Of a stretch of DNA of 64,000 nt, positions 15,615 to 61,727 are shown one piece after another. This stretch comes from Desulfuromonadales bacterium (lineage in GTDB: Bacteria > Desulfobacterota > Desulfuromonadia > Desulfuromonadales > BM103). Location of the stretch: positions 1 through 64,000 of the forward strand of contig JAQYVZ010000007.1 in the NCBI GenBank assembly GCA_030145205.1. Direction: 5' to 3'. Every line of letters begins with the position of its first letter. The first letter of the stretch is position 1. Both the position numbers and the translations under genes were made by a program. The notes beneath the pieces are model-generated. The model saw nothing but the letters and a program-made list of their open reading frames with translations. It did not search any database and had not been told where the DNA came from.

Positions 15615-15710
15615 GCAACACACCCCAATCAATCCTCCTTCACCCTGGCCTGCTTCAGTGCAGGGTGGGGTTTTGTTTTTTTCTGTTCATCATACAGACC
15701 AAAATCAACA

Positions 15711-15779
15711 CCGGCGGGTCGCGTCCCGCCAGCCGCCATCCTCTTTTGCTGGCCCAAAAGAGGATGCAGAAAAGGGCCT
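15711..15779 (+). repeat. Double-hairpin intergenic element, copy A
   Basis: Hairpin 1 at 15713-15730 is GGCGGG-TCGCGT-CCCGCC. Hairpin 2 at 15737-15766 is CATCCTCTTTTG, a 6-nt loop CTGGCC, and CAAAAGAGGATG (12 bp perfect). CAGAAAAGGGCC follows. Copy B at 16107-16168 is the same element in opposite orientation, and copy C is at 54734-54801. Stem bases differ between copies yet stay paired, while the spacing, hairpin loops and the CAGAAAA tail are kept. Confidence 0.8.
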
Positions 15780-16106
15780 TTTTGAACTCTCTGTACAAGG
15801 GTAGCATGTACTGTCTGTGAGCAGCGCATCATTGGATCTCGAACAGCAGTGATGCTGCCACCATTGGGGGGGCCTTTCTCCTTCAAGGCCCCCTTCTTGC
15901 TGCGTTGCTGTTTGAAATAAATGAGAGCGGTGGTCATTATCCGAAGAGGGCGTTAAAAGCAGCGGCAGCAAGAATAAGTGGGCCCAAGGGATGGCCCACG
16001 CTCGTCTTTGGTTGCGGAGCAGCATTCAAAATCGAGCCAGCAACATCGGTTGAGATCATTACCACCGTACAATCCACGCATGCCCCCTGCCGGGGATTTT
16101 AGGCTC

Positions 16107-16168
16107 TTTTCTGCTTACTCTTTTGAGCAAGCAAAAGAGTAAGGCGGCTGGCGGGACGCTACCCGCCA
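16107..16168 (-). repeat. Double-hairpin intergenic element, copy B
   Basis: Inverted relative to copy A. CTTACTCTTTTG, loop AGCAAG, CAAAAGAGTAAG (16114-16143) corresponds to hairpin 2 of copy A; TGGCGGG, loop ACGCTA, CCCGCCA (16149-16168) corresponds to hairpin 1. The flanking TTTTCTG (16107-16113) is the complement of the CAGAAAA tail. The whole arm matches copy A for about 70 bp with paired changes in both stems. Confidence 0.8.
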
Positions 16169-16315
16169 ACTCTCCCTTTCTTAAAAGATTAATAAAGAAT
16201 TAATCTTAAAAAAAGCGGATATTTTTCTACTCCCCCATCTTATTATTTACTAAACTACTAAAGATTACAAATACTTGTACTACTTTTGTTTTATTTAGAA
16301 TATTTAATTTTATTG

Positions 16316-54539: not shown

Positions 54540-54852
54540 AGTTGGACCTTTGCGAGAAATGTTGTCCATATGGATTCAGTCTAGCACGTTCCATGCTGTA
54601 CATGTTTGTTGTCAAATCTGACTCAATCCATACTCGCAACACAGTTATTCTATTCATTCGCCGGGTGAGCCCGGCAGGCGCCCTACAAGTCGCCCACCTC
54701 CGCCAGGGCTCCGGTGGGTGGGTTCGTTGGGTGTTTTTTTCTGCATACTCTTTTTTGCACAAGCAAAAAGAGTATGACGCCGTCAGGGGGCGCGACCCCT
54801 GCGAAAAGAGATCGAGAGGGAGACAAGAATCCCTCGCATTGACCACCCGAGA
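54540..54852. other. Non-coding region with structured repeats
   Basis: No gene. GCCGGG-TGAG-CCCGGC hairpin at 54660-54673, then a CCACC...GGTGG fold, and double-hairpin element C. Nothing else is recognised. Confidence 0.6.
54734..54801 (-). repeat. Double-hairpin intergenic element, copy C
   Basis: Same orientation as copy B. CATACTCTTTTTT-GC, loop and GC-AAAAAGAGTATG (54744-54776, one bulged T) is hairpin 2; CAGGGG-GCGCGA-CCCCTG (54784-54801) is hairpin 1. The flank TTTTTCTG matches the CAGAAAA tail. Both stems differ in sequence from copies A and B yet remain paired; the loops keep TCGCGT-like and CTTG-like bases. Confidence 0.75.
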
Positions 54853-61590: not shown

Positions 61591-61613
61591 CTTTCACAAC
61601 ATTCAAAGCAACA

Positions 61614-61703
61614 AGCCCTGGGGGAGTAGACCTACTGAGAGTTCCGCGTCGGGCGGAACGACCCCTTGAACCTGATCCGGATTATACCGGCGTAGGGAAG
61701 TGG
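61614..61703 (+). ncRNA. TPP riboswitch (THI box)
   Basis: The hallmarks of the thiamine pyrophosphate aptamer are present: CTGAGA (61635-61640), a variable GC hairpin (GTTCCGC..GCGGAAC), ACCCCTTGAACCTGATC (61661-61677) and GCGTAGGGAAG (61690-61700). It precedes the ThiF gene by about 60 bp and should reduce expression of the thiazole genes when TPP is plentiful. Confidence 0.95.
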
Positions 61704-61727
61704 TCATTCAACCGGATCGCAGGATTC

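Follow-up and report, generated by a model that had tools for sequence, protein, structure and literature searches.

The double hairpins found in the 64,000-nucleotide stretch of Desulfuromonadales DNA analyzed here (contig JAQYVZ010000007.1, positions 1 to 64,000; hereafter, the window) represent a widely dispersed family, and comparison of its copies shows that the predicted folded shape of the element, rather than its sequence, is kept across many bacteria by compensatory change. We consider it reasonably probable that these hairpins are the ends of a non-autonomous, structure-defined, chromosomally dispersed DNA element of the MITE or mobile insertion cassette (MIC) type. An intact element would consist of two inverted structured halves, each bounded on its outside by the two hairpins H1 and H2, and its cargo would be optional, with none in the window (455 bp) and one unrelated gene in the relatives from Thiobacillus.

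The element of the window and its family in the same genome

A scan of the window with a structure scanner, for which H1, H2 and an A-rich tail are all mandatory, gave exactly three matches, which coincide in position, stems and loops with the three copies (A, B and C) described in the initial annotation. Copy A, the left end of the element, is a double hairpin at positions 15710-15778 of the plus strand in which H1 (15713-15718/15725-15730, loop TCGCGT) is followed by a spacer (15731-15736), H2 (15737-15748/15755-15766, loop CTGGCC at 15749-15754) and a tail (15767-15778) containing a GGCC complementary to the H2 loop. Copy B, the right end, is inverted relative to A (16102-16170, minus strand; H1 TGGCGGG/CCCGCCA, H2 CTTACTCTTTTG/CAAAAGAGTAAG), and copy C (54732-54804, minus strand; H1 CAGGGG/CCCCTG with the loop TCGCGC, H2 CATACTCTTTTT..) is a solitary, diverged end flanked by a DUF3047 gene and a gene for an iron-sulfur protein, both on the minus strand. 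Single-strand DNA folding yielded z-scores of -2.8, -5.5 and -4.9 for A, B and C, respectively. Over 67 nt, copies A and B are 88% complementary; the 323 bp between them agree with the earlier proposal of a single MITE-like unit with about 330 bp between its ends, and the further hairpins noted in this interval are indeed present: one in the left half (GGGGGCCTT/AAGGCCCCC, 15868-15893, plus strand), one in the right half (GTGGGCC/GGCCCAC, 15978-15999, plus strand), and a long-range inverted pair spanning 15894-15974 (TTCTTGCTGC at 15894-15903 and GCAGCAAGAA at 15965-15974) that joins both halves. The whole cargo-less element, to which no strand applies, occupies 15713-16167 (455 bp) between a matE-type gene and the next gene, and lies about 100 bp past the stop codon of the former, which encodes a MatE-family transporter, beyond a terminator-like hairpin. 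This matE-type gene is present in 15 other genomes; the element is absent downstream of it in the 11 closest homologues, where synteny is too poor to define the exact junction.

The covariance model R1, built from 20 copies, matches A, B and C with E-values of 1.8e-20, 1.2e-19 and 2.6e-12, values that are partly circular given that all three sequences helped to build the model; unlike these, the many further copies are independent evidence. In the 3.72-Mb draft genome to which the window belongs, the model detects about 30 places at E<=0.01, and a BLAST search with a 66-nt query from copy A returns 35, which bears out the proposed dispersal. Fourteen of these 35 places make up seven inverted pairs of 428-462 bp, found in both chromosomal orientations, that is, the element of the window and six others of the same design, none of the seven carrying a gene. 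The same genome contains solitary ends (C51, C169, C42, C69 and C52:54732) and solitary H1 hairpins with A/T-rich arms (C313 and C96). When the seven elements are aligned in one orientation, the ends and the internal hairpins are common to them (the left internal hairpin is found in six of the seven and is deleted from the C217 element) while the linkers vary freely, a pattern that is not that of decaying inert copies.

Other repeats occur nearby. The window contains a perfect 20-nt inverted repeat, TTAACGCTGAGGCGCAGAGA (29659-29678/29750-29769), which is probably another dispersed palindromic family because a similar string, TTAACGCAAAGACGCGAAGTCGCAGAGA, is intergenic in the locus L193. Beside elements in L038 and L039 (C169 and C42 of the same genome) and in L358, there is a repeat CCCTCTCCC..GGGAGAGGG(T)TGGGGTGAGGGTGA that may correspond to the class-4 multicopy sequence (CCYTC) described in the paper on the Geobacter metallireducens genome.

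Compensatory changes and interlocked palindromes

Among 123 distinct copies, 98.5% of the stem cells are paired, compared to 79.0% +/- 0.5 in shuffles, and pairing drops to 42-46% when the partner column is slid by one. Two-sided changes are seen in 18 of the 18 pairs and amount to 342 cells in the same set, counts that do not represent independent events, the copies being related by descent. The compensatory stem changes initially noted in the window, and the selection on structure to which they were taken to point, hold across this larger set. The structure scanner is also specific, with 81 real matches and none in a 738-kb reversed (uncomplemented) control. In the ends of the Thiobacillus type, paired cells reach 99.4% for H1, 99.7% for H2, 100% for Y1 and 90.7% for Y2.

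The loops of the hairpins are coupled to their flanks. The H2 loop is complementary, over at least 4 bp, to the tail 3′ of H2 in 96 of the 123 copies (mean of 21 and maximum of 33 in 1000 shuffles), and the H1 loop is complementary, over at least 5 bp, to the H1-H2 spacer in 79 of them (29.8 +/- 3.7 when shuffled). The coupling between the H1 loop and the spacer recurs in a second set, drawn from beta-, gamma- and deltaproteobacterial contigs (36 of 100 vs 6.3 +/- 2.3), and in an alignment of 30 sequences all cells of the Y1 helix (100%) are paired, with the alternatives UA/CG and AU/UA/GC/CG. Because the loops covary with the bases immediately 3′ of each hairpin, comparison of the copies shows each end to be, in its predicted fold, two interlocked palindromes in tandem (X-Y-X'-Y', twice). 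Loop-flank coupling is a property of the family and not a feature of every copy: in the copies of the window it is weak to moderate, with GGCC/GGCC for H2 and 3 bp for H1 in copy A.

The X-Y-X'-Y' arrangement is also the topology of an H-type RNA pseudoknot, and the copies are intergenic, some of them closely following a stop codon, as could be expected if the ends were transcribed cis-elements, such as a stability element, a terminator or a pseudoknotted regulatory RNA. However, G-U cells do not outnumber A-C cells (10 vs 14 of approximately 2190 cells in the 123-copy set; 9 vs 12 of 1729 in the second set), as expected under a constraint on DNA and not under one on RNA. Furthermore, both orientations occur within the same element, a U-tract is absent after either hairpin, and no Rfam family matches the ends, a result on which a riboswitch or a known ncRNA was rejected for them. 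A classical RNA pseudoknot of H1 and the spacer was judged geometrically strained: its connecting loop of 1-3 nt is too short to span the 6-bp stem comfortably, so that alternative overlapping hairpins are as likely as an H1 pseudoknot. A structured RNA is therefore a very improbable explanation, and the constraint probably acts on a DNA hairpin, either single-stranded or in a cruciform, as the balance of G-U and A-C cells suggests. Elsewhere in the window, a TPP riboswitch (61610-61715, plus strand, 72.3 bits) is the sole Rfam match.

Altered states and differing central genes at orthologous loci

Within the order, 54 of 58 genomes contain the end according to the covariance model, with up to 68 ends per genome. 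A pattern scan of genome contigs detected the two-hairpin layout in Thiobacillus, Gallionella, Burkholderiales and Collimonas, as well as in Thioalkalivibrio, Kangiella, Desulfobacterales and Desulfuromonadales. According to the structure scanner, the distances within inverted pairs peak at 456-461 bp. In back-to-back pairs, the H1 hairpins are separated by 41-65 bp, mostly 43-49 bp, and the spacers are of similar length in several unrelated genomes and of unrelated sequence. One genome (G025) contains tandem arrays of up to five units of about 460 bp with a period of about 506 bp and mosaic interiors; in one of these arrays (L157, G025:C7:134900-138700), five such elements are joined by 43-bp linkers that carry a small hairpin, GACCGCAAGGTC. 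The plasmids yielded a single weak match, on a Variovorax replicon, and the phages searched yielded none; this near absence argues against active horizontal carriage.

Comparison of orthologous places shows three altered states of the element: its orientation is reversed, its central genes differ, or all that is left of it is a single H1 and the outer arms. The inversion comes from a single locus, in G021 and G006, where the flanks are 88-90% identical and the element is about 89% identical but reversed, the H1 hairpins included. In G039 and G053, half an element is located directly after a stop codon, at the same place in both genomes, and no 100-nt window of a 3-kb orthologous stretch is better conserved than the one with the double hairpin (97%). 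In G044, two elements (L177 and L171) carry an insertion at the same site, about 25 bp inside the H2 tail, which we take from a reading of its protein to belong to the IS481 family, a name with no family search behind it. The two insertion copies are 99.8% identical whereas the cores of the elements are 88% identical, which implies that the insertion sequence entered the element twice, independently. A role of the IS481-like sequence as mobilizer, or of the ends as part of it, was rejected; the insertion sequence parasitizes the element, and in G044 it is a site-specific hitchhiker.

Several inverted pairs in Thiobacillus and related genomes measure 0.76-1.9 kb and enclose one gene each, in the form of inverted halves of approximately 250-310 bp with an unrelated gene between them. 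The halves of the eleven Thiobacillus-type elements compared are 77-95% alike over 200-315 bp, and their central DNA shows no similarity between any two. These relatives are tied to the family of the window by shared architecture and by weak-to-moderate matches to the model (E from 1e-4 to 5e-9), with no long sequence similarity between the two groups. Central genes differ downstream of mpl, where six related genomes have an element, five of them with different genes: an AbiU2-HEPN gene (PF18734, 1.3e-28) in Thiobacillus sp. 0-1251, a 150-aa membrane protein in T. thioparus DSM 505, a 428-aa protein in Hydrogenophilales 16-64-40, a 177-aa protein in Thiobacillus W21, and a TIR protein (PF10137, 1.1e-40; PADLOC PDC-S35, 4e-75) in G067; the element in G070 has no clear gene. 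Between 0-1251 and DSM 505, the flanks match on both sides (85-88%) and the middle does not. At the same locus, T. denitrificans RG has a scar, a single H1 with outer arms that forms a 22-bp stem (z -10.6), and G062 has a remnant of about 100 bp. Other central genes encode a BRCT-like protein, a DUF2971 protein and small membrane proteins; one pair on another contig, 2.3 kb long and less certain, encloses HigB-HigA, and some long inverted pairs elsewhere enclose apparent host genes (RluA-like, PdxA-like and a TPR protein). The outer arms of Thiobacillus elements (L354, L357 and L362) have two further palindromic repeats nested against them, GTCATTGCGAGG..GCGAAGCAATCCAG and CCCTGAGC(T/C)TGTCGAAGGG, so that palindromic families pile up at the same spots.

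Inversion, deletion to a scar and cargo exchange could all result from ordinary homologous recombination and replication slippage between inverted repeats. The H1 palindromes would be the points of flipping or collapse, since a pair of palindromic sites allows recombination or slippage in both orientations, and central genes would be exchanged between copies via the repeated halves. A rival explanation is that of purely passive repeats, once spread, with palindromes maintained by template-switch correction of quasi-palindromes, with inversion, scar, cargo exchange and arrays as by-products of RecA recombination and slippage, and with neither a dedicated enzyme nor a function. Such repeats would fit the near lack of mismatched intermediates of either kind in the stems, the halves long enough for homologous recombination, the mosaic arrays in G025 and the scar, which is the expected product of slippage between two H1 palindromes. 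Nevertheless, stem correction alone leaves unexplained the covariation of the loops with bases outside the hairpins, seen in two sets, the fixed spacing of about 45 bp with unrelated spacers in unrelated genomes, and the double hairpin being the best conserved part of the orthologous stretch in G039 and G053. We regard passive repeats as a minority possibility, although everything after the first insertion could be ascribed to RecA recombination and replication slippage.

First insertion and relationship to known systems

For a mobile element of the MITE or MIC type, the first insertion would require a trans-acting enzyme. Against such an insertion, no transposase or recombinase was found in the element or tied to it, no target-site duplication was seen in the flanks, and no clean pre-insertion site was seen. 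An autonomous transposon with matching ends was sought among the long inverted pairs examined and none was found, these pairs holding the IS481-like insertion, host-like genes or single accessory genes.

The initial annotation had likened the element to a REP- or MITE-type unit and suggested a test for a RAYT-type or other transposase. Mobilization of REP-like double hairpins in trans by a Y1 HUH transposase (RAYT), or an origin as the double-palindromic TIRs described for some TIRtrons (PMC3733652), would agree with the short intergenic palindromes, often in head-to-head pairs and clusters as in BIMEs and REPINs, with the occurrence of Y1 genes in 50 of the 58 genomes, and with a weak positive rank correlation between Y1 gene number and copy number (rho 0.28, p 0.03, uncorrected for phylogeny). 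In contrast to these systems, the element has a unit of about 69 nt with two interlocked hairpins, a composite of 400-600 bp and passenger genes, and it lacks the constant GTAG/CGTC tag: the sequence at the tag position covaries with the loop, the bases flanking H1 being GACGC, GGCGA, GCCGC, GGCTA, GGCAA or GGCCA. The only Y1/RAYT gene of the same genome (L044 1310-2140, C124) is bordered on each side by a different hairpin, GGGACACTT..AAGTGTCCC; double-hairpin ends are absent from the 11 Y1 loci examined, and in the three genomes with full double-hairpin lists the nearest double hairpin is at least 15 kb from any listed Y1 gene. A Y1 gene between double-palindromic TIRs, the arrangement of a TIRtron, was likewise found in 0 of the 11 loci, in a test of gene arrangement. 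Furthermore, G008 has 47 copies and no Y1 gene, whereas G038 has 8 Y1 genes and no copy. Mobilization of this kind was accordingly rejected, with little probability left to it: the MITE-like part of the initial comparison stands, with its seven inverted pairs, and the tie to REP and RAYT does not.

The element resembles MITEs in being short and multicopy, with terminal inverted repeats and no coding capacity, as is the case for the seven elements of 428-462 bp with their 67-nt ends, and it resembles MICs in the passenger gene between inverted ends without a transposase, a feature of the Thiobacillus-type relatives and not of the genome of the window. No parental IS with matching ends was found and no target-site duplication was seen. 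The element differs from both classes in its ends, which are, by their predicted fold, two interlocked palindromes whose structure is conserved while their sequence is not. Rhizobium intergenic mosaic elements (RIMEs), which are alphaproteobacterial, also have two adjacent palindromes per unit. RIMEs are not known to carry cargo, and the likeness is one of description. Multicopy intergenic sequences that are palindromic or end in inverted repeats, in some cases with insertion sequences at a set distance, have been described in the genomes of Geobacter and Pelobacter (PMC2700814, PMC2996986, PMC3543383); their alignments sit in supplements, and they are compared here by description. The motif sequences of the element do not appear in the accessible parts of the relevant papers, the supplements of the Geobacter and Pelobacter genome papers lying outside this comparison. 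As far as the accessible literature shows, supplements and subscription papers aside, the structural signature and the swap of cargo at a fixed locus are undescribed.

With integrons, the element shares exchangeable single-gene cargo, including defense-like genes, and the definition of a recombination site by folded DNA; it differs from them in having two inverted structured halves instead of one attC, in its scattered loci and small arrays, and in the R and L boxes, which were not recognized in it by inspection. An unlikely reading is that of an integron-like cassette system. The interlocked palindromes would then be structure-specific recombination sites of a putative recombinase, of the host or acting in trans, and this enzyme would insert, invert, excise and stack single-gene cassettes in the chromosomes of beta-, gamma- and deltaproteobacterial lineages. 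The cassettes would carry defense-like genes, toxin-antitoxin genes or genes for small membrane proteins, and the repeats of the window would be empty cassettes.

Elements of this kind fill intergenic space in many proteobacterial genomes, where they are left unannotated or read as spurious small ORFs. The covariation between loop and flank provides a precise, testable structural signature of them, and the mpl locus in Thiobacillus is a natural experiment on cargo exchange. If these are exchangeable cassettes with ends recognized by DNA shape, they would constitute a route for moving single defense-like genes, one overlooked by current searches for mobile elements since the elements are not marked by a transposase, an integrase or a conserved terminal sequence. 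Such 'intergenic repeats' may belong to a type of gene cassette that has drawn little notice.
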